Shown piece by piece: positions 4,226-17,309 of a stretch of 29,402 nt of DNA (position 1 is the first letter of the stretch; every line of letters begins with the position of its first letter). The stretch is from a virus. Both the position numbers and the translations under genes were made by a program. Location of the stretch: positions 1-29,402 of IMG/VR virus record IMGVR_UViG_3300020404_000607. One strand, given 5' to 3'. The notes below the pieces were generated by a model. It had not been told where the DNA came from and did no database searches. It saw only the letters and a list, made by a program, of their open reading frames with translations.

Positions 4226-5557
4226 TTACAATGCCATTGCAATTGCGATAGCGAACGCCTGTGTTGTTTTTGCGTCTAGTTGTGTTTGAATATTACTTGA
4301 AACTCCGTCTAAATGACCTATTTCAGTTGACGTTACAGCACTTACAGATACGTCACCACTACCGTCTGAGACTAATGCTCTACCAGTAGTTAAGTCTGCC
4401 ATCTTACTAAATGCAATTGCAGCTGATGATTTGATATCTGCATTGACAATATTTGTAATTGTGTTATTATCACTATCAATACTTTTATTTGTTAAAGTTT
4501 TTGTTGTAGCAGCAAGAAAAGTATCTAATGTAGCAACTGTTGTTTGACGCATTGTACCATTATCGTTAGTCACTAAACCATCACCACTTGCAAAAGCAGT
4601 TGTTCCTGCTGATGTGTCACCATCTATTATATTTAATTCAGTAGCAGTAGATGTTACACCGTCTAATATATTTAACTCAGCCGCAGTTGAAGTAACACCA
4701 TCTAAAATATTTAATTCTTCTGGTGTTGATGTAATTTGTGTTGTTGATGCAGCTGCAAGAACTGGTAATGTTCCTGAAACGTTAGGTAAAGATATTGTTC
4801 TATCTGCTGTTGGGTCAACTGTTGTTAATGTTGTTTCATGAGCATCTGCTGTTGCACCTTCAAATACAAAAGCATTTTGAATACTAACAGTTGTAGAATC
4901 GACTGTTGTTGTTGAACCTGAAACAGATAAGTTACCTGCAATAGTAACATTTGCACCACTTAATGTTATAGCATTACTACCACCATTAGCAATCGTACTT
5001 GTTGTTAGTGTAGTAATTGTTTGTGAAGTTGCTGTTCCCCCAACAACACCATTAATTGTTGGAGCAGTTAAAGTTTTATTTGTGAGTGTTGAAGATGTTC
5101 CAGAAACAAAAGTATCTATCTGTGAAGCATTAAGTTTCTTTTCTGTACCACCATCTGATACTACAAATTTATCTGTAGCAGCTAAAGTAATTCCTGTACC
5201 ATCAGAATATGAATCAATGTCTAATCCTAATTCTGCATTAACATAGTCTGATATTTGAGTTGCGGTTACAAACTTTTCTGTACCACCATCTGATATAGCA
5301 AACTTATCAGTATCAGCAATTGTTATACTTGACCCATCGGTCATTCCGTCAATATTTAAAACTGCTTCTACACTACCAAATTCTAATGCACTCGCACCTG
5401 AATTAACTTTTAATACTTGACCAGCAGAACCTATTGATAATGAAGCCCCAAGACCACCATGTGTTAATCCTACTGTATCGCCTGTCTGAAACTCAGAAAG
5501 ACCTGTTGCAGTACCAGCGTCATTAAATACTGCTCTAATTGGTGTTTTATTTGCCAT
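4226..5557 (-). CDS. Putative fibre/neck structural protein with ELNILDG repeats
   Basis: This 443-residue Thr/Ser/Gly/Ala-rich protein has almost no charged clusters and no cysteine, as expected for a trimeric beta-structured virion fibre. It contains the phage module VFEGATADAHETTL...DPTADRTISLPNVSGT (231-263), shared with the 415- and 417-residue proteins of this window. Three tandem 13-residue units ELNILDGVTSTA occur at 281-313, and STEIGHLDGVSSNIQ (410-424) echoes them. Two related DKFxxSDGGTEK units occur at 84-95 and 129-140. The C-terminus AFAIAIAMAL (434-443) resembles those of the two paralogs. It occupies the place of T4 wac, just upstream of gp13, but no sequence link to fibritin is visible, so the exact role is open. 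Confidence 0.75.
   Translation of the reverse strand: MANKTPIRAVFNDAGTATGLSEFQTGDTVGLTHGGLGASLSIGSAGQVLKVNSGASALEFGSVEAVLNIDGMTDGSSITIADTDKFAISDGGTEKFVTATQISDYVNAELGLDIDSYSDGTGITLAATDKFVVSDGGTEKKLNASQIDTFVSGTSSTLTNKTLTAPTINGVVGGTATSQTITTLTTSTIANGGSNAITLSGANVTIAGNLSVSGSTTTVDSTTVSIQNAFVFEGATADAHETTLTTVDPTADRTISLPNVSGTLPVLAAASTTQITSTPEELNILDGVTSTAAELNILDGVTSTATELNIIDGDTSAGTTAFASGDGLVTNDNGTMRQTTVATLDTFLAATTKTLTNKSIDSDNNTITNIVNADIKSSAAIAFSKMADLTTGRALVSDGSGDVSVSAVTSTEIGHLDGVSSNIQTQLDAKTTQAFAIAIAMAL
4610..4726 (-). repeat. Three tandem 39-bp in-frame repeats (ELNILDG unit)
   Basis: Within the 443-residue structural gene, residues 278-316 contain three copies of a 13-residue unit with ELNILDG or ELNIIDG at 281, 294 and 307. 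The DNA copies (plus strand aatatttaa and variants) differ at several third positions, so the array is old enough to have diverged. Units of this kind are common in phage tail and fibre proteins. Confidence 0.8.
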
Positions 5558-5566
5558 TATTTATTC

Positions 5567-6877
5567 CTAAAATTGAAAAATGGTAGTGTCACTATCAGCT
5601 AGTGCGTTCCCATTTGCCAATGTAAATGTTTTTGTTCCTGTAAACGTTGTTCGAGTATCAATCGAAGCGTTAAACTCAAAGTCTGTATTCTTCGTATCTA
5701 GTCCTGCTGAAGCAGTAAAAAAAGGTATTACCCTGGTAGGTTGTCCCCCAGCTGCACCAGTACCAGTAGCCAAAATTGCTAATTCGTTATCACCTGATTT
5801 TGTGCCTGCAGGTAATGTTGCACCTGTTGCTGATATTGCAATTGCACCTGTACCATCAGAACTTATTGTTGCACCTGCAAGGTCAATTGTATCACCAGCA
5901 AGAAATAAATCATTAAATCTTTTTGTTGAACTACCTAAATTTCTTAAATTAGTTACGTCTGGTACAATGTCTTGGTCAATTCTACTTAAATCTACTGGTG
6001 CCCCAAAAGTACCATCTTGTAAATCTAAACCGTCACCAGCATTTGAACCACTTGAATCTGTGCCATCTAAAATTACTCTATCACCAGCATTTGAACCACT
6101 TGAGTCTGTAGCATTTAAAACTAAATCTTCAGTTTCTAAAACTGTACCTACAAACTTATTAGTTGCTGAGTCAAATTGTAAAACTCTTTTATCTACGAGA
6201 GCAGTATCAGTATCAATATCAGTTAATGCAGCCAATGATGAAGATGTTGTTCCAAAAACTATTTTACCTGTTGATGCTTGATACTTTAATACCTTGCCAT
6301 CACCAATAGAACTTATGTCTACATCATCTAACTTTGTTAAATTAACTTCACCGCCACCACCTATTGTGGACATTTGTTTAGTTACAATATCTTTAAACTG
6401 AACAAACTCTTTTTTCATATCATCTAAAGAGGTTATATTCTCTAGACTTTTTAATTTTTCTTTTTCTAGTTCATTTGCAACTTTCATTTCAGAAAGTTTT
6501 TTAGTTGTCTGTTTAATTATATCATCTGTATTGTCATCTTCAGAAATTTCAATTTCAACAACTGGTTTTTCTTCTTTTATTTCTTTTTCAGGTTCTAGTA
6601 ATAATTCTTTTTTCTTTTTTGGTTTTGTTTTCTTTTTCTCTTTCTTTAGAGAAGAAAACAATTCTTCTAAATCAGATATTTTCTTTTCTGACTTAGCAAT
6701 CACTTCTTGTTTTTGTTTTTTCGCATCAGCGATTACAGAGAAAAAGTCTTCTAATTTCTCTTCTGGTTGTTCTGCGACCTTAACAACCTTCTTTATATCT
6801 TCTTTGATTTTAGAATTTAATTTTTTTTCTTGTAAGAGTGAAATTTGTTTTTCTATATCTGGATCAATATCTATCAT
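5567..6877 (-). CDS. Two-part structural protein: charged coiled-coil N-half, fibre-like C-half
   Basis: This 436-residue protein has two very different halves. Residues 1-170 are Lys/Glu-rich with heptad-like leucines and isoleucines and a basic cluster KKEKKKTKPKKKKE (78-91), predicting long helices or a coiled coil. A glycine hinge STIGGGGEVNL (170-180) follows. Residues 181-436 are Ser/Thr/Gly/Asp-rich and beta-like, with a duplicated TDSSGSNAGD (257-266 and 273-282) and the marine-phage motif NLGSSTKRFNDLFLAGDTI (313-331). The gene starts 2 bases before the stop of its upstream neighbour and ends 9 bases before the next gene. The arrangement suits a virion fibre or whisker held by a helical stalk, but the role is inferred from architecture and position only. 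Confidence 0.7.
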   Translation of the reverse strand: MIDIDPDIEKQISLLQEKKLNSKIKEDIKKVVKVAEQPEEKLEDFFSVIADAKKQKQEVIAKSEKKISDLEELFSSLKKEKKKTKPKKKKELLLEPEKEIKEEKPVVEIEISEDDNTDDIIKQTTKKLSEMKVANELEKEKLKSLENITSLDDMKKEFVQFKDIVTKQMSTIGGGGEVNLTKLDDVDISSIGDGKVLKYQASTGKIVFGTTSSSLAALTDIDTDTALVDKRVLQFDSATNKFVGTVLETEDLVLNATDSSGSNAGDRVILDGTDSSGSNAGDGLDLQDGTFGAPVDLSRIDQDIVPDVTNLRNLGSSTKRFNDLFLAGDTIDLAGATISSDGTGAIAISATGATLPAGTKSGDNELAILATGTGAAGGQPTRVIPFFTASAGLDTKNTDFEFNASIDTRTTFTGTKTFTLANGNALADSDTTIFQF

Positions 6878-6879
6878 AA

Positions 6880-7212
6880 TTATCTACTTACGCTTGGTGT
6901 TACCGTTGCACGTCCCTCTATTCTTCGAGTGATAAGTCCTGAACTATCAGTTGTTGTCAAATCCCAAACATATCTACCTTCTGAAAGAGCACCTGTTACA
7001 GTATCAGTTAATGCAATAGAACAAGTACCGTCAGTTGCACTTACCTTTGCTGTTGTAAACGAGGTCGATGAACTAGCAAGATGTGTTTTTCTCATAGTAG
7101 CAGTTATCGTTTCGCTTGATAAATCGACTACTGTTCCTGTTGAGTCTTTTACTGTTAATGTTTCAGTATAATCGCAATCTTGGTCGATAGTAATATTCTG
7201 TATTGTTGCCAT
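6880..7212 (-). CDS. Small beta-rich virion protein (BppU N-domain-like)
   Basis: The 110-residue protein reads like a single beta-sandwich: ITIDQDCDYTETLTVKDSTG, then DLSSETITATMRK, TCSIALTDTVTGALSEGRYVWDLTTTDSSG and GRATVTPSVSR. This alternating strand pattern with the closing VTPSVSR is common in small phage baseplate or tail proteins related to the N-terminal domain of BppU-type proteins. Two cysteines (C13 and C68) could pair. It is first in its unit: a late promoter lies 27 bases upstream and AGGAATGATTA precedes the ATG. A virion role is likely from family resemblance and context; the location within the particle is unknown. Confidence 0.65.
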   Translation of the reverse strand: MATIQNITIDQDCDYTETLTVKDSTGTVVDLSSETITATMRKTHLASSSTSFTTAKVSATDGTCSIALTDTVTGALSEGRYVWDLTTTDSSGLITRRIEGRATVTPSVSR

Positions 7213-7239
7213 TAATCATTCCTGTTTTTCTTATAATAC

Positions 7240-7247
7240 TATTTATA
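7240..7247 (-). promoter_or_regulatory. T4-type late promoter (TATAAATA) for the 110/436/443-residue gene unit
   Basis: The plus strand reads tatttata, giving TATAAATA on the minus strand, 27 bases before the ATG at 7212. The leader contains CAGGAATG as the ribosome binding site. It sits in the 140-base gap after the radical SAM gene, so structural genes downstream need not rely on read-through from the enzyme cassette. Confidence 0.85.
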
Positions 7248-7290
7248 ATCCAAGAAAAGAGAAAGCTAAACAAAATTAACGGGATTTGCC

Positions 7291-7324
7291 GTCTCATAGC
7301 CGCCCGCTAGGCGGCGTTAGAGGC
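7291..7324. other. GC-rich stem-loop in the gap after the radical SAM gene
   Basis: A perfect 6-bp all-GC stem GCCGCC/GGCGGC with a 5-base loop lies at 7299-7315. A second helix GTCTC/GAGGC (one G-U pair) flanks it at 7291-7295 and 7320-7324, separated by an internal loop. It stands out in this AT-rich sequence and lies between the stop of the radical SAM gene and the next late promoter. No run of T follows directly on either strand, so a simple intrinsic terminator is not well supported. It may stabilise the 3' end of the cassette mRNA or stop transcription weakly. The rest of the 140-base gap holds only the late promoter. Confidence 0.55.
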
Positions 7325-7352
7325 TGCCTGCATATGATAGTACCCCCTAATT

Positions 7353-8780
7353 TTAGACATTTTTAACCTGTGCATCTGATTTTCTTCGAACTATAGTAAT
7401 TGGTTGAGGTTTTAACTCACCTATTTTTCTTGCTTTTCGTGTTTTCTTAGGTTTACCATTAACTGCCCAAAATATATCTTTACGGTCTTCTCTAAAATTA
7501 CCTTCAATATATATTGGAAAATAACCTGAGATACTATCTATAACATGACAAAACATAATTACGTTATCACTATATGCATTATTACAAGATGCTTCCCAAA
7601 GTTCACCTGTTAAAAATAAACAAGAACCTTTACATAGATGTATTACAGGACATTTAGGACAGTCTGGTCGGTCACTCCAATGTGTGCCTGTTTTTATTTT
7701 TACTTTCTCTAAATCATTTACATGACCAATATGATGTGAAATGCCTGCAGGATTAGTTGATACAGGACTTACATTTTGACAAGTCAAAACATTTCCATTT
7801 AAATCTACAGCCATATTTTTTCTTTCACTCATTCCGCATTTTTGAGGTAATGTTTCTACACGTCTTCCTATCTGTAGACTTTTAATAAAGTCTCTGGCTT
7901 TTTTGTCAACTAAACCAAATCTTGACGCTGTGTTTTCTCTTAATTCAGCAACCGCTTTGATTCTGTAATCAATATCTTTTTCACCATCTAGTAAAGAAGT
8001 ATCAAGACCTCCGTCATCATATGCATCAATAAATCCACCTTCACCAAGTTCTAAATATTGTAAATATTCTTTACCAATTTCTTTTTCTACAAAGTTTTCA
8101 AACCATTTTTGAACAGTTGCACGACTTATATTATCGGCATGTATCATTGAATTAAAAGACATTCTACCTTTAGGTGCTAATCTTTTAAATAAATCTATAA
8201 TACCTACTTTTGATTTAGGGTCACTCAAAGGGTCAGGACCACGAATATGTTGACCTACAGCATCATGTGACATTCCTATAGAAAAACCATACTCTTCTAA
8301 AAAATCATTCTTTTCTTTATCTAATAAACTACCATTAGTAACCATACTCATTGTACAATCAGGATATTTTTTCTTTAATGCAATAGCTAATGGTTTCAAA
8401 GTTTTCCAATAAACTAAAGGTTCTCCTCCCCAAAATTCAAATCTTGGTTTGCCGTCACCATGATACCAGTTGTCCATGTTACTAACAAAGTCATCTACTT
8501 GTTTGTAATTAGTTGCTTTTGCTCTAGGAACAAATCTTTGACTACAGTATGAACAAGAATAGTTACAAGATAAACCTAATTGTATTTTAATTTTTTCTAG
8601 TTCACCTTTTCCTTTTTCCATTTCTGCAACTTTAACGTTATTTGGGTCTTGTACTTCTGCACCTCTTATCACTGGCAGTCCTGTATCTTTCCAATGTAAC
8701 GTACTTACATCGGTATCGTATACCATTTGTCTTTTATGTTGTGTCTCAAAGTTATGACAAGTTAATGTAAATTTAGGCAT
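7353..8780 (-). CDS. Radical SAM/SPASM peptide- or protein-modifying enzyme
   Basis: This 475-residue enzyme has the radical SAM cluster motif C72-x3-C76-x2-C79 (GLSCNYSCSYCSQRF), GGEP for SAM binding (118-121) and MVTNGSLL (147-153). Its C-terminal part carries the complete SPASM signature: C315-x13-G329-x4-C334, then C374-x2-C377-x5-C383-x3-C387, then C399. This predicts two auxiliary [4Fe-4S] clusters, as in anaerobic sulfatase maturases and RiPP maturases, which act on peptide or protein side chains. The substrate is not identifiable here. An ATG at 8780 overlaps the previous stop as TAATG and is preferred over an upstream non-ATG start. The last 30 residues are a basic tail. It is last in a late operon with three putative 2OG oxygenases and an Ig-like protein. 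Such enzymes need a low-potential electron donor, presumably from the host. Confidence 0.9.
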   Translation of the reverse strand: MPKFTLTCHNFETQHKRQMVYDTDVSTLHWKDTGLPVIRGAEVQDPNNVKVAEMEKGKGELEKIKIQLGLSCNYSCSYCSQRFVPRAKATNYKQVDDFVSNMDNWYHGDGKPRFEFWGGEPLVYWKTLKPLAIALKKKYPDCTMSMVTNGSLLDKEKNDFLEEYGFSIGMSHDAVGQHIRGPDPLSDPKSKVGIIDLFKRLAPKGRMSFNSMIHADNISRATVQKWFENFVEKEIGKEYLQYLELGEGGFIDAYDDGGLDTSLLDGEKDIDYRIKAVAELRENTASRFGLVDKKARDFIKSLQIGRRVETLPQKCGMSERKNMAVDLNGNVLTCQNVSPVSTNPAGISHHIGHVNDLEKVKIKTGTHWSDRPDCPKCPVIHLCKGSCLFLTGELWEASCNNAYSDNVIMFCHVIDSISGYFPIYIEGNFREDRKDIFWAVNGKPKKTRKARKIGELKPQPITIVRRKSDAQVKNV

Positions 8781-9319
8781 TACTTTTGTACCCTTGGTTT
8801 GTAAATATATTCCCATTTAGATGCAGGAGTTAAATGTAACCCTACACTTATTCTGAGTTTATTTTTTTCACTAGGTGTCTCAGGCATATGAAACAGATTA
8901 GAATTAAAAAGAACAGCCCTATTTGGTACATATGGCACTCTATGAATTTGGTCATCTTGATGTATTTGTAATGCACCTGCCCAATCATTTTTCCATTCTT
9001 TAGAACCAAACCAGATAAGACTAAGGTCTTTTGGTGTGCCGTCTTGATGTAAATGTGACTCGTTCAATGCAGTTGCACCATTGATGCCTACTCGTTGTAC
9101 AGCATAAGGTGTTTTTATTTGTTGATGGTCTAGTGAATTACAAGTTGTAAATCTGTTATACAATTTTTCTCCTATTGCCTTTTCTACATCAGGATTAAAA
9201 ATACGCCAACCTTGATTGCCTGTTATGTTACTTAAATTTGGAAACTGCCAATAACCTTTTTTAAAAAATTCGTAACAGTAATCCCAATCTTCATCTTTTA
9301 AAAAATTATCTATAATCAT
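8780..9319 (-). CDS. 2OG-Fe(II) oxygenase (HxD...H...R type)
   Basis: This 179-residue protein has a complete facial-triad pattern: H91-Q-D93 in SHLHQDG, H144 in NSNLFHMPE and the 2-oxoglutarate-binding R156 in LRISVGLHL. The double-stranded beta-helix strands around them (WAGALQIH, RAVLFNS) fit the prolyl-4-hydroxylase-like 2OG oxygenase fold. Such enzymes hydroxylate proteins or small molecules using Fe(II), O2 and 2-oxoglutarate. It is clearly different in sequence from the two oxygenase-like genes before it. The ATG overlaps the previous stop (ATGA) and its own stop overlaps the radical SAM start (TAATG), so stoichiometric co-expression is likely. The substrate is unknown. Confidence 0.85.
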   Translation of the reverse strand: MIIDNFLKDEDWDYCYEFFKKGYWQFPNLSNITGNQGWRIFNPDVEKAIGEKLYNRFTTCNSLDHQQIKTPYAVQRVGINGATALNESHLHQDGTPKDLSLIWFGSKEWKNDWAGALQIHQDDQIHRVPYVPNRAVLFNSNLFHMPETPSEKNKLRISVGLHLTPASKWEYIYKPRVQK

Positions 9320-9939
9320 ATTGTAATAAAAGAGTCTGCTTGTTGTCTGTCCTTAACTTTGGCGTTTATAACAATAAATATTCTATCTCTTTTTCCTTTA
9401 TACATCTCAGATTCATGAAATAGATATGATGGATGTATGATTAACATTTTAGGTTTAGGTTGTAATTGAATTAACATATCATGATTTAGACCTCTTGAGC
9501 GTTGTGCTATTGGGTCAATTAATAAAAACCTACCATCATCATTATCACACGTTGGGTCATTACTTTCTACATTATCTAAATCTATATAGTAAACTCCAGT
9601 ATAATCAATACCTCTATGAGTATGAGGTCGTGCCCGATTACCTTTGACAAATCTTCTAGGGAATGCAGTTACCTGTATTTCTAATTCATGTGGGTCTATA
9701 AATTTTTCTGCATATAACATCTCATACAGTTTTACTTTAATTCTTTCTTTAAACAATTTTATTATTGGTGTGTCTAAAGCAAATAGATTTGGTACTTTAA
9801 TCTCTTTGTTAAAAATTTCAGGAGTACCATTAAATTTATCAATCTCTGGCTCAACCGCTTTTAATAACTGAAGATTATCTTCACTGGTCAACAGGTCTTC
9901 TTCGACCATAATATTATTTACCCATGCTTGATATATCAT
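9316..9939 (-). CDS. Putative 2OG-Fe(II) oxygenase, paralog of the next upstream gene
   Basis: Using the ATG at 9939, which overlaps the upstream stop as ATGA, the protein has 207 residues; a longer reading would need TTG and 48 bases of overlap. It shares the pattern HTHRGIDYTGVYYIDLD (106-122), DPIAQRSR (142-149) and HPSYLFHESEMYKGKRDR (169-186) with the 215-residue neighbour. This resembles the 2OG-FeII_Oxy_5/TIGR02466 style, with H106 or H108 plus D112 and H169 or H175 as candidate iron ligands and R186 as the 2-oxoglutarate contact. The ligand assignment is tentative because the classic HxD is not exact. Close paralogs lie side by side, so a gene duplication followed by substrate specialisation is plausible. 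Confidence 0.78.
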   Translation of the reverse strand: MIYQAWVNNIMVEEDLLTSEDNLQLLKAVEPEIDKFNGTPEIFNKEIKVPNLFALDTPIIKLFKERIKVKLYEMLYAEKFIDPHELEIQVTAFPRRFVKGNRARPHTHRGIDYTGVYYIDLDNVESNDPTCDNDDGRFLLIDPIAQRSRGLNHDMLIQLQPKPKMLIIHPSYLFHESEMYKGKRDRIFIVINAKVKDRQQADSFITI

Positions 9940-10583
9940 AGTTTTTTGTAAAACGGTGCTTGTATAGGTTCTGCTACTCTGCAAACAACAGTAAAGAAAG
10001 ACCTAGTTTTTTTGCCTAAATAAGGTTCACTAAAATGATACAAATATGCAGGGTGCATGACAAGCATTTTAGGATAAACTACTACGTCTACGTTTTGTGT
10101 GTGGTTCATTGCTCTTGACCTTTGTGATATAGGGTCAGTAAAAATAAATCTACCTTTAGGTTGTTTAAAATTATCACCTAGACCTTCCATAGGATCCAAA
10201 TCTGCATAATATACTGCCACATAATCACAACCTCTGTGATTGTGTGTTTTACTTCTGTCACCATGTTCGTGTTCTCGATATGCGGCTACTGCTTCAATGT
10301 CATATTTTTCAGGTTCAATAAAACCATCTGCTTCCATTAATAATCTTACACGAGATTTTATAAGAGCTGCAAGTTTATCTATAGCAGGATGGTCAACATT
10401 GAATAAATTATAACCTTGACGATTAGGGTCTTGAATATCTGGAACATGTTTAAATACTTTTGAGTGTTCTTTACCAATTCTAATTAACTCTTGATTATCT
10501 TCATCAGTTATGTCAACGCCTTCCATAATAACGTTTGTTGCCCAGAAAGACTGTAGTTTTATATTTTCATTATCTAATTTCAT
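9936..10583 (-). CDS. Putative 2OG-Fe(II) oxygenase
   Basis: This 215-residue protein resembles the TIGR02466/2OG-FeII_Oxy_5 group found widely in marine T4-like phages. Key stretches are THNHRGCDYVAVYYADLD (113-130), GRFIFTDPISQRSR (144-157) and HPAYLYHFSEPYLGKKTR (177-194). Candidate iron ligands are H114 or H116, D120 and H177 or H183; R194 is the likely 2-oxoglutarate contact. AGGAAAGG precedes its ATG, which lies inside the end of the Ig-like protein gene (14-base overlap). Expression is therefore tied to a virion-like protein, which hints at a role in modifying virion proteins, though this is an inference from context. Substrate unknown. Confidence 0.8.
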   Translation of the reverse strand: MKLDNENIKLQSFWATNVIMEGVDITDEDNQELIRIGKEHSKVFKHVPDIQDPNRQGYNLFNVDHPAIDKLAALIKSRVRLLMEADGFIEPEKYDIEAVAAYREHEHGDRSKTHNHRGCDYVAVYYADLDPMEGLGDNFKQPKGRFIFTDPISQRSRAMNHTQNVDVVVYPKMLVMHPAYLYHFSEPYLGKKTRSFFTVVCRVAEPIQAPFYKKL

Positions 10584-11334
10584 ATTCTACCTTTCCTGTA
10601 AAATGTTTAAAACCTGCTTTAACTTTGCCTCTACCTTTAAATAAAATCTTAGTACTTGCTTTACCTACATTGTTTGTATAAATTCTATTTTCACGCAACA
10701 CACCTGTTGTTGTTTCTAAAAATATTTCTACATTTTCTTTAAGAGCATTTGTACCATCAGCTTCTAATAATTGTGCTGTAATATTATCTTCATTATCCAT
10801 ACTTAATTGAATCGTTGGCATCATAGGAATAATATCATCTAATCCGTTACCATTAATAGTTTCTATCATTTTATCACCTTGTTCAACACCATTAATTATA
10901 ATTTTAGAAGCAGGTAGAAATACAATCCAATCGTCAATGGGTGAGTCTGCCCAAGGTCTAGCAAAAGAGAAACCTTGTTGTATACCTAACATTGATGCTA
11001 CAACATGTCCTGTAGTTGATTTAGATTCACTAGTGTGTCTGAAGAAATCGTATACTCTAACTTTTTCATGTAATCTAAAACCTACAGCGATAATTGCGTG
11101 TGGTTGATTTATCTGTTTATTAGAAGATGTGTCTCTGTTTAAGTCAGCTCGAGACAAGTAACCTTGATAGTGGTCTCTTTGGTCCATACGCATTTCACGT
11201 CTGTATGTAACGAGGGAGTCTTTACTACCCATTAGTTGTAAGTCATATTCCAGGCCTTCTGGAGTATGATTGATTCTTAATTCATTTGGGGATTGTTGCT
11301 CATTTACATGAGGGCATTTTTTGTATCCAATCAT
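10570..11334 (-). CDS. Ig-like virion protein, paralog of the 228-residue protein
   Basis: This 254-residue protein is taken from the ATG at 11334, which has AAGGAG 8 bases upstream; a GTG 9 bases earlier would overlap that ribosome binding site. Its C-terminal 75 residues form an Ig-like (invasin/Big_1 style) domain: VEIFLETTTGVLRENRIYTN, then NVGKAST and KVKAGFKHFTGKVEYEI. The same domain and an upstream segment (HAI..., FFRHT, DSPIDDW) are shared with the preceding 228-residue protein, so the two are full-length paralogs. Ig-like domains decorate many phage capsids and tails. It is the first gene of the oxygenase/radical SAM operon and so a candidate substrate or partner for these enzymes. 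Confidence 0.72.
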   Translation of the reverse strand: MIGYKKCPHVNEQQSPNELRINHTPEGLEYDLQLMGSKDSLVTYRREMRMDQRDHYQGYLSRADLNRDTSSNKQINQPHAIIAVGFRLHEKVRVYDFFRHTSESKSTTGHVVASMLGIQQGFSFARPWADSPIDDWIVFLPASKIIINGVEQGDKMIETINGNGLDDIIPMMPTIQLSMDNEDNITAQLLEADGTNALKENVEIFLETTTGVLRENRIYTNNVGKASTKILFKGRGKVKAGFKHFTGKVEYEIR

Positions 11335-11380
11335 TAAATACACTCCTTTTCATAATATTATATCATGATGATAATATAAC

Positions 11381-11396: not shown

Positions 11397-12083
11397 TTAT
11401 ATAGTTATTTCTGCTTTGCCTGAGAAATATTTGAAACCTGCTTTTACTTTACCTGCGGAAGCACCAACTACTGTAGTTGTAGCGACACCACTTGAATTTG
11501 TTTTGACTCTATTTTTATTTAGATATCCGCCTGTAGTTTCAAAGTAAATCTCTACGTCTTCTTTGACAGGGTCGATTGTAGCTGAAATATCTGTTCCGTC
11601 TTTAGACATTGAAATACTTGGTAGTAAGTCGCCGGCAGCAGCACCAATCGACCTATTATTATCTACATTAAATGTAGCAAGAGCACTACCTTCATTTGTA
11701 GCAATACTTGAGTTTACTACTAATGTCCAATCATCTGTTGAACTATCAACATAAGGTATAAACACAAACACTATAGGTTTAATGTTCATTAAATTTCTAA
11801 GTGACCCTACACTTGACTTGTTGTGTTGTGTATGTTTAAAAAAGTTTGTAGCTTTTAATGTACCAGCTGCACCATAATTGTCGTCATGAACTGACAATAC
11901 AGAAATAGCATGATGTGTACTAATAGTTTCTTTTGATTTATGGTCTGCTAAAATAAGGTCTTTATCAAACTCATATGTATTTGAACCTATTGTAATTTCA
12001 AATTCGTCACTACCTTTATCTTTTAGTGTTACTGTTTGGTCTTTATATGCCGGTTCAGTTTGTGTATTTTTTCTTAAATTCAT
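11397..12083 (-). CDS. Ig-like virion protein (228 residues)
   Basis: The protein has an N-terminal beta-rich part with VTLKDKGSDEFEITIGSNTY, a middle part with HHAISVLSVHDDNYGAAG and NFFKHTQHNKSS, and a C-terminal Ig-like domain (about 170-228) with VEIYFETTGGYLNKNRVKT, SSGVATTTV and KVKAGFKYFSGKAEITI. It aligns along its whole length with the 254-residue protein downstream, at moderate identity, which shows an old tandem duplication. It contains no cysteine. It starts 11 bases after the stop of the large fibre-like gene with AAGGATAAACA upstream, so it is probably read from the same late transcript. A decoration or fibre-accessory role is likely, but the location is unknown. Confidence 0.7.
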   Translation of the reverse strand: MNLRKNTQTEPAYKDQTVTLKDKGSDEFEITIGSNTYEFDKDLILADHKSKETISTHHAISVLSVHDDNYGAAGTLKATNFFKHTQHNKSSVGSLRNLMNIKPIVFVFIPYVDSSTDDWTLVVNSSIATNEGSALATFNVDNNRSIGAAAGDLLPSISMSKDGTDISATIDPVKEDVEIYFETTGGYLNKNRVKTNSSGVATTTVVGASAGKVKAGFKYFSGKAEITI

Positions 12084-12094
12084 TGTTTATCCTT

Positions 12095-12130
12095 TTAACA
12101 GTTACAGTTACACGCACAGTCGTGGTTGTG
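12095..12130 (-). other. Codons for the HNHDCACNCNC tail
   Basis: Residues 742-752 plus the stop of the fibre-like gene encode HNH, D, then C-A-C-N-C-N-C. The alternating cysteine spacing is regular, and all four Cys codons are TGT or TGC. In a trimeric fibre this would place twelve cysteines and six histidines at one end. That fits metal binding, disulfide or thioether crosslinking, or an enzyme-modified tip. I list it separately because of the nearby radical SAM/SPASM and oxygenase genes. Confidence 0.85.
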
Positions 12131-14353
12131 ACCAGATGAAGCAAAACCGGAAACGGCATTGAATGTTCCGTCGCCTCTTAAAAATGTAGTACTATTTCTT
12201 GTACCACTAGCAGAAATTTTAGCCAATGTAACTTGGTTGTCTCCTATGTGGGCAGTATCAATACTACCGTCTGTATAATGTTCACTATTGATTGCATCAT
12301 CAGCAATTTTAGCACCTGTGATTGCGTCTGCCTGAATGTCTGCTGTTGCGACTGTATCGTTTGGTAGTAAAGGTACTTGACTAAATGTAACTACACCGTT
12401 TGAAGCAATTGTCATAGCATCTGCATCTGAAGCAACACCTATTGTACCGCCATCTTTAATTACTAAATCATCTGCAATAGTTAAAAGACCAGCAGAACTT
12501 AATGACATTTTTTCTGAAGCTGCTTCTGAAACGCCTGTTTTGAAACTTAATTTTGTTGCATTACTAGAAGAACTAAAGTCTCCTTCTGAGACAGCCTCAA
12601 TACCAGCAGCAACAAGTATCGCATCTGTACCTGTTCCCTCATCTGGTGCCTGAAAATCTATTTTACCAATAACATCATTAGCAGCGATATCTGTTTCGCC
12701 TGTTTGTAATGTTAATGAAACTGGTTTATCGTCTGCCGTAGCAGTATGTTTTAATATTAGTCCTGTGTCAGCAGTATGAATTAATCTAATTTCTTGGTCA
12801 TTACCAAATTGAATTGTACCGCCATCTGCCAAGAATAAATCTGACCACTCTAATGAAGCAGAACCTAAAGCTTCTCCGTCAGCACTTGAAGGATTACTTG
12901 AGCCTGCAGCCGCAAAGGATAATACACCAGAACCATTTGTTACTAATGCCTCTCCACTACTTCCGTCTGAAGATGGTAGAGCAAATGATGTGCCTCCAGA
13001 TGTAAGTGTAAGTTTTGAACCATCTGATTCAATTTTTTCGTTTGCATCTGTAAAGTGTAAACCTACGTTTGTAGGAATAATAACATCTGTAGCCGCTGTT
13101 AATTTAATATTGTTACCAGAGATAGTTAAATCTGTACCATCTCCTTCAATTTTTTCTGCTGAATCACCGAACACCATTCCTACATTGTTAGGTAAGTGTA
13201 CGTCACTTGTAGCAGTTAAGTTGATTTTAGCGCCTGATGTTATTGTTAAATCTGTGTTGTCGCCTTCTATTTTCTCGCCAGTACCGAAAGTAACTCCTAC
13301 GTTTGCAGGAACTACAACATCACTTGTAGCAGTTAAGTTAATTTTGCCACCAGATGTTACTGTTAAATCTGTATTATCGCCTTCAATCTTTTCACCAGTA
13401 CCAAATGTTATACCTACATCTGCAGGAACTACAACATCTGCTGTAGCAGTAAGATTAATATTATTACCTGAGATAGTTAAATCTGTTCCGTCGCCTTCAA
13501 TTTTCTCAGCATCATTACCGAATGTTAATCCAACATTTGCAGGTATGTTAATATCTGTTACTGCTGTTAGATTAAGGTCAGCACCAGCATTGATAGTTAA
13601 ATCTGTTCCGTCTGAAGATATTTTCTCTCCACCTTTATCAAAGAAGTAAACTGCCCTATCATCAGCAATTCTCATTACTTCGTTACCGTCATACTGATTA
13701 AATACTAAGTCGTCTGAGTCGACACCGAGTTGAATAACTTGAGCACCTGAAGTGCCGTCCATGTCTAGAGTAAGTTGTAAAGTACCAGCGTCTTTGAATT
13801 CTACGTTACCACCAGCAGCATCTATAACGATATCGTTTGATGAGTCTAGTGTAATATCTGTGCCATCGTTTGTAATGGAGTCAAGTGCAATACTTCCAAT
13901 ATTTGTAATGTCAGCATCACTCATATCGAAACTACCTGTTACATCTAAGTTTCCACCAATACTTGCATTACCTGTAACTGTTAAGTTATCAGCGATTGTT
14001 GTTTCACTTGTAGTATGTCCGATTGTTACAACGATACCAGAGGTTTCAGTTGCAATTTTTAAAGCACCTGTTTTGTTTGCAACATATGAATTAGTGCCAT
14101 CGTGATAGATTTCTAAATCATCACCAGTACCAAATAGTCCCTTTGCACTATCAGCAAATTTTTGACTACTTCCTGTTAATACACTAAATGTATTTGCTGT
14201 GAATTGAAAGTCATCGGCATCCGAAATCTTAATATCAATCTGGTCATCTGTGTCCGCTGTTATTGTCGTATCACGGTCAGCATCTAAAATTAATTCTGCG
14301 CCGTCTAAATCTAAAAGATTTTTACCAATTAAGTTTTTTTCGATATATGCCAT
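12095..14353 (-). CDS. Large tail-fibre-like protein with six repeats and a Cys-rich C-terminal tail
   Basis: This 752-residue Asp/Thr/Ser/Gly-rich protein has typical marine-phage fibre phrases: FADSAKGLFGTGDDLEIYHDG (66-86), LEWSDLFLADGGTI (501-514) and TTFLRGDGTFNAV (722-734). Six tandem repeats of 38-40 residues begin with EKIxxDxTDLT at 243, 283, 321, 360, 400 and 439 and fit a beta-solenoid or trimeric fibre shaft. The last 12 residues are GHNHDCACNCNC. These are the only four cysteines in the protein, and the HxH (742-744) recalls iron-binding HxH motifs of T4 gp37 tips. It lies where T4 encodes gp12 and other fibres and starts 10 bases after a small virion gene. A receptor-facing fibre is the best guess; no adhesin domain is recognisable. 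Confidence 0.8.
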   Translation of the reverse strand: MAYIEKNLIGKNLLDLDGAELILDADRDTTITADTDDQIDIKISDADDFQFTANTFSVLTGSSQKFADSAKGLFGTGDDLEIYHDGTNSYVANKTGALKIATETSGIVVTIGHTTSETTIADNLTVTGNASIGGNLDVTGSFDMSDADITNIGSIALDSITNDGTDITLDSSNDIVIDAAGGNVEFKDAGTLQLTLDMDGTSGAQVIQLGVDSDDLVFNQYDGNEVMRIADDRAVYFFDKGGEKISSDGTDLTINAGADLNLTAVTDINIPANVGLTFGNDAEKIEGDGTDLTISGNNINLTATADVVVPADVGITFGTGEKIEGDNTDLTVTSGGKINLTATSDVVVPANVGVTFGTGEKIEGDNTDLTITSGAKINLTATSDVHLPNNVGMVFGDSAEKIEGDGTDLTISGNNIKLTAATDVIIPTNVGLHFTDANEKIESDGSKLTLTSGGTSFALPSSDGSSGEALVTNGSGVLSFAAAGSSNPSSADGEALGSASLEWSDLFLADGGTIQFGNDQEIRLIHTADTGLILKHTATADDKPVSLTLQTGETDIAANDVIGKIDFQAPDEGTGTDAILVAAGIEAVSEGDFSSSSNATKLSFKTGVSEAASEKMSLSSAGLLTIADDLVIKDGGTIGVASDADAMTIASNGVVTFSQVPLLPNDTVATADIQADAITGAKIADDAINSEHYTDGSIDTAHIGDNQVTLAKISASGTRNSTTFLRGDGTFNAVSGFASSGHNHDCACNCNC
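12989..13627 (-). repeat. Six tandem 114-120-bp in-frame repeats (EKIEGD...TDLT unit)
   Basis: The array covers residues 243-455 of the fibre-like protein. The unit is roughly EKIEGDxTDLTIxSGxxINLTATxDVxxPxNVGxxFGxxx. The middle copies (residues 321-359 and 360-398) are the most alike and probably the youngest duplication. Between copies the DNA differs mainly at third positions, consistent with selection on the protein. Confidence 0.88.
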
Positions 14354-14794: not shown

Positions 14795-16042
14795 TTAACC
14801 TAGTGCAATTGCCTGAGCAATAGCAAAAGCATTTGTGGCCGCACCTGTCGTAGTGATTAGTGTTCCTGTCTCATTTGGTATTGTAACAGTTCTATCTGCT
14901 GTTGGGTCTACAACTGTTAATGTAGTCTCATGTGCGTCAGCAGTTGCACCTTCAAATACGATACTTGAGTCTGTTAAAGACAAGTTAGTCGCAGTTAAAT
15001 TTGTAATAGTAGGTGAGTTTAAAGTTGGACTTGTCAAAGTTTTATTTGTCAAAGTCTGTGTTCCTGTTAATGTTACAACTGTACTATCAAGTGCAAGTGT
15101 TACTGTATTACTTGAGCCTGAACTGTCAATACCAGTACCACCAGCAACGGTTAGTGTCTCACTATCTAAATCAATCGCAATAGTTCCACTATCAGTTGTA
15201 ATGTCTAAATCTTGAGCAGTTATAGTTGCATCAACATATGCCTTAATACTTTGTTGCGAAGCAGCTTTTGTGGCAGAATTAGATGCCATATTATCTTCAT
15301 CAAGAAAGGCAGTTCCTGAAAGAGCAGTATTTAAAACACCACTATTAATTACAGGACTTGTTAAAGTTTTATTCGTTAATGTTTGAGAACCTGTTAGAGT
15401 TGTTATGGTTGAATCAATTGCAAGTGTTATTGTGTTGCCTGAACCTGAACTATCTAATCCTGTTCCACCAGCAATCGTCAATGTTTCACTATCAAGGTCA
15501 ATTGCAATCGTGCCACTATCTGAAGTTACATCTAAATCTTGAGCAGTAATTTGAGCATCAACATATGCTTTGATTGATTGTTGAGATGCTAACTTTGTTG
15601 CACTATTAGAATCCATACCGTCTTCATCTAAAAATGCAGTTCCTGAAAAAGCAGTATTAAAAACACCACTTGTAATAACTGGTGCAGTTAAAGTTTTATT
15701 TGTAAGCGTTTCAGTTGCATCTACTACAGAAACAGTACCAGACGCATCTGGAAAAGTAATTGTTCTATCAGCAGTTGGGTCAGATACTTGTATTGTTGTT
15801 TCGTGTGCATCATCTGTATCGCCTTCAAAAACTATTTTAGTTTCGAATATTGAAGTACCTGCTTTCAGAGCAGCAATTTCTGTATTCATTGCAACGACAG
15901 CTTCTACAATATCTGTAGATGAAGCAATTGTGCCACTTGCACTTGTTAGGCTCGAAATATCTCCAACATCAGCCGCTGTCAGATTATAAGTCTGTCTAAA
16001 AGTTTCTAGTGTATCTGTTACTGCTACGGTTCTATCTGCCAT
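14795..16042 (-). CDS. Repeat-built structural protein (415 residues), paralog of the upstream gene
   Basis: The N-terminus MADRTVAVTDTLETFRQTYN and following DVGDISSLTSASG (about 26-37) match the upstream 417-residue protein. Two tandem 109-residue units (110-218 and 219-327) each contain TLTNKTLT, SGTAFLDED, NSATKxASQQSIKAYVD, AQDLD and IDLDSETLTxAGGTG. A third partial TLTNKTLT follows at 330. The unit is flanked on both sides by the module VFEGxTxDAHETTxxVxDPTADRT (71-94 and 362-385). The C-terminus NAFAIAQAIALG matches the signature seen in two other proteins here. This mosaic make-up is typical of phage fibre proteins that evolve by module shuffling. AGGATAAATA precedes the ATG, 13 bases after the previous stop. 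Confidence 0.75.
   Translation of the reverse strand: MADRTVAVTDTLETFRQTYNLTAADVGDISSLTSASGTIASSTDIVEAVVAMNTEIAALKAGTSIFETKIVFEGDTDDAHETTIQVSDPTADRTITFPDASGTVSVVDATETLTNKTLTAPVITSGVFNTAFSGTAFLDEDGMDSNSATKLASQQSIKAYVDAQITAQDLDVTSDSGTIAIDLDSETLTIAGGTGLDSSGSGNTITLAIDSTITTLTGSQTLTNKTLTSPVINSGVLNTALSGTAFLDEDNMASNSATKAASQQSIKAYVDATITAQDLDITTDSGTIAIDLDSETLTVAGGTGIDSSGSSNTVTLALDSTVVTLTGTQTLTNKTLTSPTLNSPTITNLTATNLSLTDSSIVFEGATADAHETTLTVVDPTADRTVTIPNETGTLITTTGAATNAFAIAQAIALG
15062..15715 (-). repeat. Two tandem 327-bp in-frame repeats
   Basis: These encode residues 110-218 and 219-327 of the 415-residue protein and are strongly similar at the protein level, with identical stretches such as SGTIAIDLDSETLT. 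Related units of 330 bp occur in the next gene (16320-16979), giving four copies of the same module within 2 kb. Confidence 0.88.
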
Positions 16043-16055
16043 ACTACTATTTATC

Positions 16056-17309
16056 CTATCCTAATGCTATCGCAAATGAAGTTGACTTACCCTTAGTTAC
16101 ATGGGTTGCTGTTGTTGCTAATGTCATATCTGTATTTGGTATTGTGATTACATTGTCTTGTGTAGGTTCTTCACAATCTAAAGTTGTCTCAAAATCATTT
16201 GATGTAGAACCTTCAATTATAATTCTTTCACCTACGTTTAATCCACTTACAGTACCAGATGATAATGTGAACGCACTAACGACTGGTTCTGTAAATGTTT
16301 TATTTGTTAATGTTTGTGACGCTGTCGTTATTGCAATAGTCGAATCAACGGCAACTGTCAACGTATTACCTGTAGCACTTGAATCTAGTCCTGTGCCTCC
16401 TGAAACAGTTAATGTTTCACTATCTAAATCAATATTTAATGCCCCACCACTATCGGCTGCAAAATCTAAATCTTGAGCAGTTGTCTGAGCATCAACATAC
16501 GCCTTAATACTTTGTTGTGAAGCCAATTTTGTTGCACTATTAGAATCTAAATCATCTTCATCAAGAAAAGCAGTTCCACTTATTGCTGTATTTAAAACAG
16601 CACTAGTTAATGTGGGAGTTGTTAAAGTTTTATTTGTTAGTGTTTGTGTTCCTGTTAAAGTTGTTACAGTTGAATCAATAGCAAAAGTTGCTGTATTACT
16701 TGTAGCACTTGAATCTATTCCTGTACCACCTGCAAGTGTTAATGTTTCACTATCTAAATCTATACTTTGTTCTGTACCACTATCTGGTGCAATATCTAAA
16801 TCTTGGGCAGTTAAATTAGTATCAACGTATGCCTTAATACTTTGTTGTGTTGCAGCCTTTGTAGCAGAATTAGATGCAAAATTATCTTCGTCTAATACGG
16901 CACTACCACTTGCACCTGTATTTAAAACAGCACTTGTTATTGTAGGTGTTGTTATTGTTTTATTTGTATATGTTTGTGACGCAGTTATTACTGCCATTTC
17001 ACCACTAGCGTCTGGTAAAGTAAATGTTCTATCTGCTGTTGGGTCAGTTACAACAAGAGATGTTTCAAATGCATCATCTGTAGCACCTTCAAAAATTAAA
17101 CCGTCACCACTAAAAATGTGAGAGTCAGTTGATATAGTTGTTAAGTCAGGATTCAATAATACAATTGCTTCGACAACATCTGTTGCACTTGCAATAATAC
17201 CACTTGCATCTGTAATACCTGAAATATCTCCTATGTCTTCAGCAGTACCATTAAATTCAAATCTAAATTTATTTAATGTATCACCCGCTGATATATTTCT
17301 ATCTGCCAT
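16056..17309 (-). CDS. Repeat-built structural protein (417 residues)
   Basis: The layout is that of its downstream paralog: a shared N-terminal domain (DIGDISGITDASG, about 26-38), a LIFEGATDDAFETSLVVTDP module (71-90), two 110-residue repeats (111-220 and 221-330), a third partial repeat start at 331 and a degenerate EGSTSNDFETTLDCEEPTQDN module (367-387). It ends in SFAIALG. Only one cysteine is present (C379). The ATG overlaps the end of the preceding small gene by 11 bases. Both paralogs keep the same order of parts, so the whole gene was duplicated rather than only the repeats. A fibre or baseplate-associated role is likely. Confidence 0.75.
   Translation of the reverse strand: MADRNISAGDTLNKFRFEFNGTAEDIGDISGITDASGIIASATDVVEAIVLLNPDLTTISTDSHIFSGDGLIFEGATDDAFETSLVVTDPTADRTFTLPDASGEMAVITASQTYTNKTITTPTITSAVLNTGASGSAVLDEDNFASNSATKAATQQSIKAYVDTNLTAQDLDIAPDSGTEQSIDLDSETLTLAGGTGIDSSATSNTATFAIDSTVTTLTGTQTLTNKTLTTPTLTSAVLNTAISGTAFLDEDDLDSNSATKLASQQSIKAYVDAQTTAQDLDFAADSGGALNIDLDSETLTVSGGTGLDSSATGNTLTVAVDSTIAITTASQTLTNKTFTEPVVSAFTLSSGTVSGLNVGERIIIEGSTSNDFETTLDCEEPTQDNVITIPNTDMTLATTATHVTKGKSTSFAIALG
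16320..16979 (-). repeat. Two tandem 330-bp in-frame repeats
   Basis: These encode residues 111-220 and 221-330 of the 417-residue protein, with TNKT at 115 and 225, LDEDxxxSNSATK and QQSIKAYVD in both. They are homologous to the pair in the downstream paralog. Confidence 0.88.

Follow-up and report, generated by a model that had tools for sequence, protein, structure and literature searches.

Why should a phage fibre protein carry its only cysteines at its extreme C-terminus, on the same strand as, and upstream of, a radical SAM/SPASM enzyme? An earlier note on this DNA had proposed two readings of this cysteine tail, one as a substrate of the enzyme and the other as a metal site comparable to the HxH iron site of T4 gp37. 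Comparison of the locus with related phage and bacterial loci strongly supports the first, in which the tail would be a substrate of the SPASM enzyme, on the basis of two-way co-occurrence and cassette exchange.

The fibre, its tail and the downstream genes

We infer that the window (the whole stretch of DNA analysed, 29,402 nucleotides) belongs to a T4-like pelagimyophage, because its terminase fragment shows 78% identity to Pelagibacter phage HTVC008M and its baseplate and neck genes are T4-like. Translation of the ORF at 12095-14353 confirmed a fibre of 752 residues with exactly four cysteines, all within the last seven residues (C-terminus GHNHDCACNCNC), and the ORF terminates ...SGFASSGHNHDCACNCNC*, with the stop codon directly after the tail. 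The 12 tail residues are encoded at 12098-12133, rather than at 12095-12130 as noted earlier, a shift corresponding to the stop codon. This tail was kept exactly in a near-identical phage (L001, 100%) and in L002/L083, whose fibre is 93% identical overall.

Downstream of the fibre, one co-directional run encodes a pair of related Ig-like proteins, then three 2OG-Fe(II) oxygenases and finally the radical SAM/SPASM enzyme. The enzyme had been placed two genes beyond the next promoter; counting from the fibre, it is instead the sixth gene downstream, and promoter-like matches in the region were not above those of shuffled sequence (26 found versus 32.7 expected). The features of the region are:

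12095-14353, minus strand: fibre protein, 752 aa (phrog_13518); shaft common to other marine phages, tip not
12098-12133, minus strand: alternating-Cys tip GHNHD-CACNCNC, proposed from sequence as the radical SAM substrate; tail class found in 93 of 106 enzyme loci
11397-12083, minus strand: partner protein 1, 228 aa, two beta domains, the C-terminal one Ig-like (Big_1-like), ending VKAGFKYFSGKAEITI
10570-11343, minus strand: partner protein 2, 257 aa, paralogue of partner 1 (31% identity, same cluster)
9936-10583, minus strand: 2OG-Fe(II) oxygenase a (2OG-FeII_Oxy_5; PF13759, 1.7e-7; phrog_81)
9316-9984, minus strand: 2OG-Fe(II) oxygenase b (2OG-FeII_Oxy_5; PF13759, 4.7e-11); true start probably downstream of the listed TTG
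8780-9319, minus strand: 2OG-Fe(II) oxygenase c (2OG-FeII_Oxy_3-like; PF13640, 8.7e-5, under the curated cut-off; cluster 21)
7353-8780, minus strand: radical SAM/SPASM enzyme, 475 aa, starting at Met13 of the listed 487-aa ORF (PF04055, 3e-11; phrog_1802, 8e-60)
6880-7212, minus strand: candidate fibre-assembly protein, 110 aa, just downstream, of uncertain membership in the system (phrog_1084; phrog_3304, 'L-shaped tail fiber protein assembly')

Other fibre-like proteins of the window, encoded at 14795-16042, 16056-17309 and 4226-5557, have hydrophobic C-termini (NAFAIAQAIALG, TSFAIALG and QAFAIAIAMAL, respectively), and shaft homologues elsewhere terminate in KAIAMAIVFG or SAIGLIIALG; such hydrophobic tails may represent a second, conserved kind of fibre tip. 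A protein encoded at 743-1366, adjoining the terminase gene and lacking a PHROG match, contains YPSGHA...GFHYISD and appears PAP2-type phosphatase-like by eye.

Co-occurrence of the tail and the enzyme

With an alignment of four enzymes as the query, 23 loci were collected from bacterial genomes and, from viral contigs, the best 80 of at least 350 relatives. A first pass found a C-terminal alternating-Cys run encoded at 66 of the 80 viral loci. A scan of all ORFs then found the tail in 89/103 enzyme loci, compared to 0/78 control loci (728 kb) that had been picked solely for a similar fibre shaft and were scanned the same way (Fisher p = 4e-37, which overstates independence, as the loci are partly redundant). 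Together with the Hint fusion of Halomonas (L105), the window and the Achromobacter phages JWF and 2-1, the tail was present at 93 of 106 enzyme loci, a proportion that applies to the closest relatives of the enzyme and to tails recognised by automatic ORF calling. Among the 13 loci without a tail, the sequence begins no more than 1.5 kb before the enzyme gene in eight and no more than 1.9 kb before it in one, so the fibre would be missing from these nine. The upstream sequence was present and contained no tail in L098, L102, L107 and L176; the enzyme of L107 is cut by the contig end. Conversely, none of 36 whole control contigs that share the shaft and have another tip contained the enzyme.

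The reverse scan, for NCNCNC followed by a stop codon, returned at least 120 stretches, 82 of them with an in-frame ORF. The matches listed included 73 fibre or tip proteins ending in NCNCNC, and the enzyme was encoded on the same contig for 62 of them. By the criterion of the earlier note, tails in many phages without the enzyme would argue against a substrate role; for the remaining 11 of the 73 proteins listed, the contig ends within about 1 kb, on the side where the enzyme is expected, and this test did not refute the substrate role. The matches listed also included nine non-fibre phage proteins of three families (L200/L247/L260; L203/L233/L252/L268/L286; L241) that end in NCNCNC, with no enzyme relative found on their contigs, indicating that such an end does not always require the enzyme. 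In sum, the co-occurrence of tail and SPASM gene that the earlier note had suggested as a check was found in both directions, and the association is far beyond chance.

Composition of the tail

The consensus tail is N-C-N-C-N-C at the extreme C-terminus of a fibre or tip protein. Among 73 distinct tips, the residue preceding the first Cys was Asn in 64, each run contained 2-7 Cys, and the 227 positions between cysteines were mostly Asn (150), followed by Asp (23), Ala (18) and Arg (11). The tail of the window, DCACNCNC, deviates from the usual N-C-N-C start. Runs were located either within the last few residues or right before Cys1 of a Hint domain. Codon usage was mixed for both Cys (285 TGC, 94 TGT) and Asn (230 and 113 of its two codons), and this variation, together with the fixed position of the tails at the protein end, led us to reject a microsatellite or frame artefact. 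The pattern indicates constraint on the tail at the protein level and counts in favour of the substrate reading.

The same tips bear on the proposal of a T4 gp37-like iron site. HxH binds iron in T4 gp37, and this, together with the Ferrojan Horse idea, can be counted in favour of a tip that is an unmodified metal site, holding Fe, Zn or Cu through Cys with or without His, with the enzyme modifying something else; the alternating Cys and the His-rich stretches of some tips (DPHHHHNNCTNCNCNC) could also bind metal. However, an HxH within the last 24 residues occurred in just 5 of the 73 distinct tips, and was absent from the marine relative L108, so that an iron tip is unsupported as a general function. 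A metal site also leaves the near-obligate linkage to a radical SAM enzyme unexplained, and we regard it as very unlikely, the least likely of the alternatives considered.

Several phages encode tandem proteins of 80-100 aa (one in L251 has 167 aa) that each end in NCNCNC and contain little beyond tip and tail (L235, 2048-2634; L251; L259; L295; L302); in most cases the contig also encodes the same enzyme. These tandem proteins of about 90 aa (92-98 aa in L235 and L259) are putative minimal natural substrates. In L199, L215, L090 and L091, very Asn-Cys-rich proteins of 131-173 aa, with 15-21 Cys and NC pairs throughout, are encoded upstream of the enzyme.

The cassette is independent of the fibre shaft

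The marine relative L108 encodes close relatives of partner 1 (74%), partner 2 (85%), the three oxygenases (75-84%) and the enzyme (82%), and its fibre ends in IDCNCNC (tip ...VPPDAIDCNCNC, without HxH), but only the last ~67 residues of that fibre are common with the fibre of the window. In contrast, L003-L011 have the shaft in common with the window fibre (in most of them about 68-79% across residues 488-714) but different C-termini, and no cassette genes were found in the sequence examined. The presence of the cassette with another shaft and of the shaft without the cassette indicates that tail and enzyme travel together, independently of the shaft, and showed that tail, partner, oxygenases and enzyme form one cassette. 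Vertical linkage specific to one fibre was rejected for the same reason. Clustering of shaft cores placed 131 sequences in one big cluster, probably through low complexity, and no exact count of independent shafts is claimed.

Achromobacter phages JWF and 2-1 were recovered by a protein search with the enzyme, and their own enzymes show 42-43% identity over the full alignment. Their fibre, encoded two genes upstream of the enzyme, is unrelated to that of the window and contains NCNCDCNCNCSCFPAGT in JWF and NCNCDCNCSCFPAGT in 2-1. In these two phages and in Halomonas L105, the Cys run abuts Cys1 of a Hint domain (PF05203, 3e-12). The three fusions are:

L082 (JWF), 6646-8097: Cys run-Hint fusion
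L084, 3655-5097: Cys run-Hint fusion
L105, 6502-7722: Cys run-Hint fusion

Hint domains self-cleave at Cys1, so the mature fibre would again terminate in the Cys run, with the fusion releasing the tail as a new C-terminus. The window has a stop codon after the Cys run and no Hint domain there. Phage JWF has been cultured and is a temperate siphovirus that infects Achromobacter (PMC3899368). In Halomonas sulfidaeris (L105), two copies of the enzyme gene flank the Hint-fused tail protein, one of them apparently broken by a stop codon.

Partner proteins and oxygenases

Of the 101 enzyme loci in the neighbour clustering, 83 have a member of the partner family (cluster 2) between fibre and enzyme and 53 have 2OG oxygenases; in freshwater T4-like loci the minimal set was fibre-partner-enzyme. 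In structural comparison, the AF2 model of partner 1 (pLDDT 85) resembled intimin D0-D1 as well as uncharacterised phage proteins. The position of the partner directly after the fibre suggests, by analogy with gp38, a tip adhesin or chaperone.

The frequency of the partner gene at enzyme loci could also mean that the enzyme acts on the Ig-like partner, or on a host or phage glycan, leaving the Cys tail only to clamp the partner by disulfides or to anchor it. Yet the tail was present without a clustered partner (e.g. L090, L091, L094, L141, L142 and L158), the partners are highly variable in sequence (mean column identity 19%) with few Cys in those of the window, and the placement of the tail at the protein end across many shaft types is the layout expected of a tag read by an enzyme. 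We therefore consider a partner or glycan target very unlikely; the enzyme very probably acts on the tail, judging from the co-occurrence and cassette data.

The enzyme family and its predicted chemistry

Ten cysteines were invariant in 58 homologues of the enzyme, all of them ligands of the radical SAM cluster or the SPASM domain, and other columns contained at most 29% Cys. They comprise the radical SAM motif CxxxCxxC (C84-C88-C91) and C327, C346, C386, C389, C395, C399 and C411, which match the spacing of the seven-Cys SPASM motif, CX9-15GX4C..CX2CX5CX3C..C (PMC6231123). Seven SPASM cysteines for two clusters imply a CteB-like Aux I cluster with a putative open coordination site, an arrangement that CteB shows and that has been considered for AlbA (PMC6231123). 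The AF2 model of the enzyme (pLDDT 88.7) was nearest to anSME, CteB, ChlB, TigE, SkfB and SuiB in Foldseek. An RRE-like N-terminal domain was not apparent in the model, whose first 91 residues contain strands but no helix of at least four residues.

The enzyme could act on the tail by another chemistry, converting Cys to formylglycine to give an anSME-like aldehyde tip, or epimerising alternate residues to give a D/L beta-helical needle resembling polytheonamide. anSME, which acts on a Cys in a large protein, is the best whole-length neighbour in sequence and structure, and the JWF enzyme is annotated as a sulfatase-maturating enzyme. However, Cys261, the eighth Cys that completes the ligation of Aux I in anSME, has no Cys counterpart at the aligned site, and 58/58 homologues have Gln in the position that follows the second Aux I Cys, where anSME has the catalytic Asp277 next to Cys276. 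Similarly, the period-2 spacing of Asn and Cys recalls the every-second-residue pattern of PoyD (PMC8326336), but the radical SAM epimerases PoyD and EpeE need an additional Cys as hydrogen donor (PMC8326336), and the 58-homologue alignment contained no further conserved Cys for this role. Taken together, formylglycine formation or epimerisation of the tail seems unlikely.

A precedent for SPASM cross-linking of a protein subunit rather than a peptide is QhpD, which makes Cys-to-Asp/Glu thioethers within a full subunit, the QHNDH gamma subunit (PMC8172795), although it differs in being a bacterial enzyme with another fold context, no fibre and no NC repeat. From the putative open Aux I site, the missing counterparts of Cys261 and Asp277, the missing hydrogen-donor Cys and this precedent, we infer that the cysteine pattern of the enzyme fits thioether cross-linking better than it fits epimerisation or the making of formylglycine. 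Whether the tail contains thioether cross-links is, on this sequence evidence, about evenly balanced.

Enzyme loci in bacterial genomes were found in Rhodobacteraceae, Burkholderiales and Halomonas, as well as in MAGs, with several copies in the marine isolate Thalassobacter stenotrophicus CECT 5294. The enzyme was scarce in cellular genomes, occurring in 3 of 249 genomes of the family of Thalassobacter and in 1 of 274 of the class of Limnohabitans; both counts include the seed genome. This scarcity rules out a host housekeeping maturase, and the enzyme family is phage-borne. One locus from a genome in the family of Thalassobacter (L317, 3380 bases) encodes two different radical SAM enzymes in tandem.

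Comparison with known systems and proposed mechanism

The arrangement resembles that of the ranthipeptide and sactipeptide maturases CteB, PapB and AlbA, in which a seven-Cys SPASM radical SAM enzyme is encoded beside a Cys-rich substrate, and CteB was among the top structural matches of the enzyme of the window. In contrast to those systems, the substrate here would be a virion protein of ~80 to 1082 aa that lacks a peptide leader and is modified at its C-terminal tip, where Cys recurs at every second residue, spaced mainly by Asn; nor was an RRE seen. As in T4 gp37/gp38, a fibre gene is followed by a candidate tip-adhesin gene, but here the conserved feature is not an HxH metal site, and T4 gp38 is not known to have a radical SAM neighbour. 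A radical SAM cassette has been described as a difference between MAGV3 and MAGV16 in the host-recognition cluster of pelagimyophages (PMC7029224). These phages probably belong to the same group as the window virus, given its terminase, and the genome region is similar; that study, whose text nowhere mentions cysteine, makes no connection with a Cys tail on a fibre or with Achromobacter or other phages. No paper linking phage fibres to radical SAM maturation was found among the open-licence PMC papers searched, and the probable chemical finishing of the fibre tip in many unrelated phages looks like an undescribed process.

It is likely that the tail is a RiPP-like core at the C-terminus of a virion fibre and that the radical SAM/SPASM enzyme encoded alongside carries out its maturation. 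We propose that the enzyme would abstract hydrogen from residues of the N-C-N-C strip, joining Cys sulphurs to carbons of neighbouring, mostly Asn or Asp, residues, and that the tip of the presumably trimeric fibre would become a compact polycyclic cap resistant to reduction and proteases. In loci that have 2OG oxygenases, these may hydroxylate either this tip or the fibre. The Ig-like partner may serve as tip adhesin or chaperone, and the mature tip would contact or penetrate the host surface. More tentatively, these tails may define a widespread and undescribed class of virion proteins in phages of alpha-, beta- and gammaproteobacteria, probably including SAR11, with a thioether-stapled, often hydroxylated polycyclic cap that binds receptors or penetrates the envelope and, in some phages, a Hint domain as a self-removing protector; this full proposal is somewhat less probable than its negation.

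Phage fibre tips are usually viewed as plain folded protein, at times with a bound metal or a chaperone. If the proposal is correct, a radical enzyme that finishes the fibre tip would add a new layer to virion maturation and would explain the radical SAM cassettes in host-recognition regions of marine phages (PMC7029224). It would also supply a large family of natural substrates built on the NC repeat, among them proteins of ~90 aa suited to biochemistry, and it raises the testable question of whether the outermost point of the virus is a modified peptide on which infection depends.
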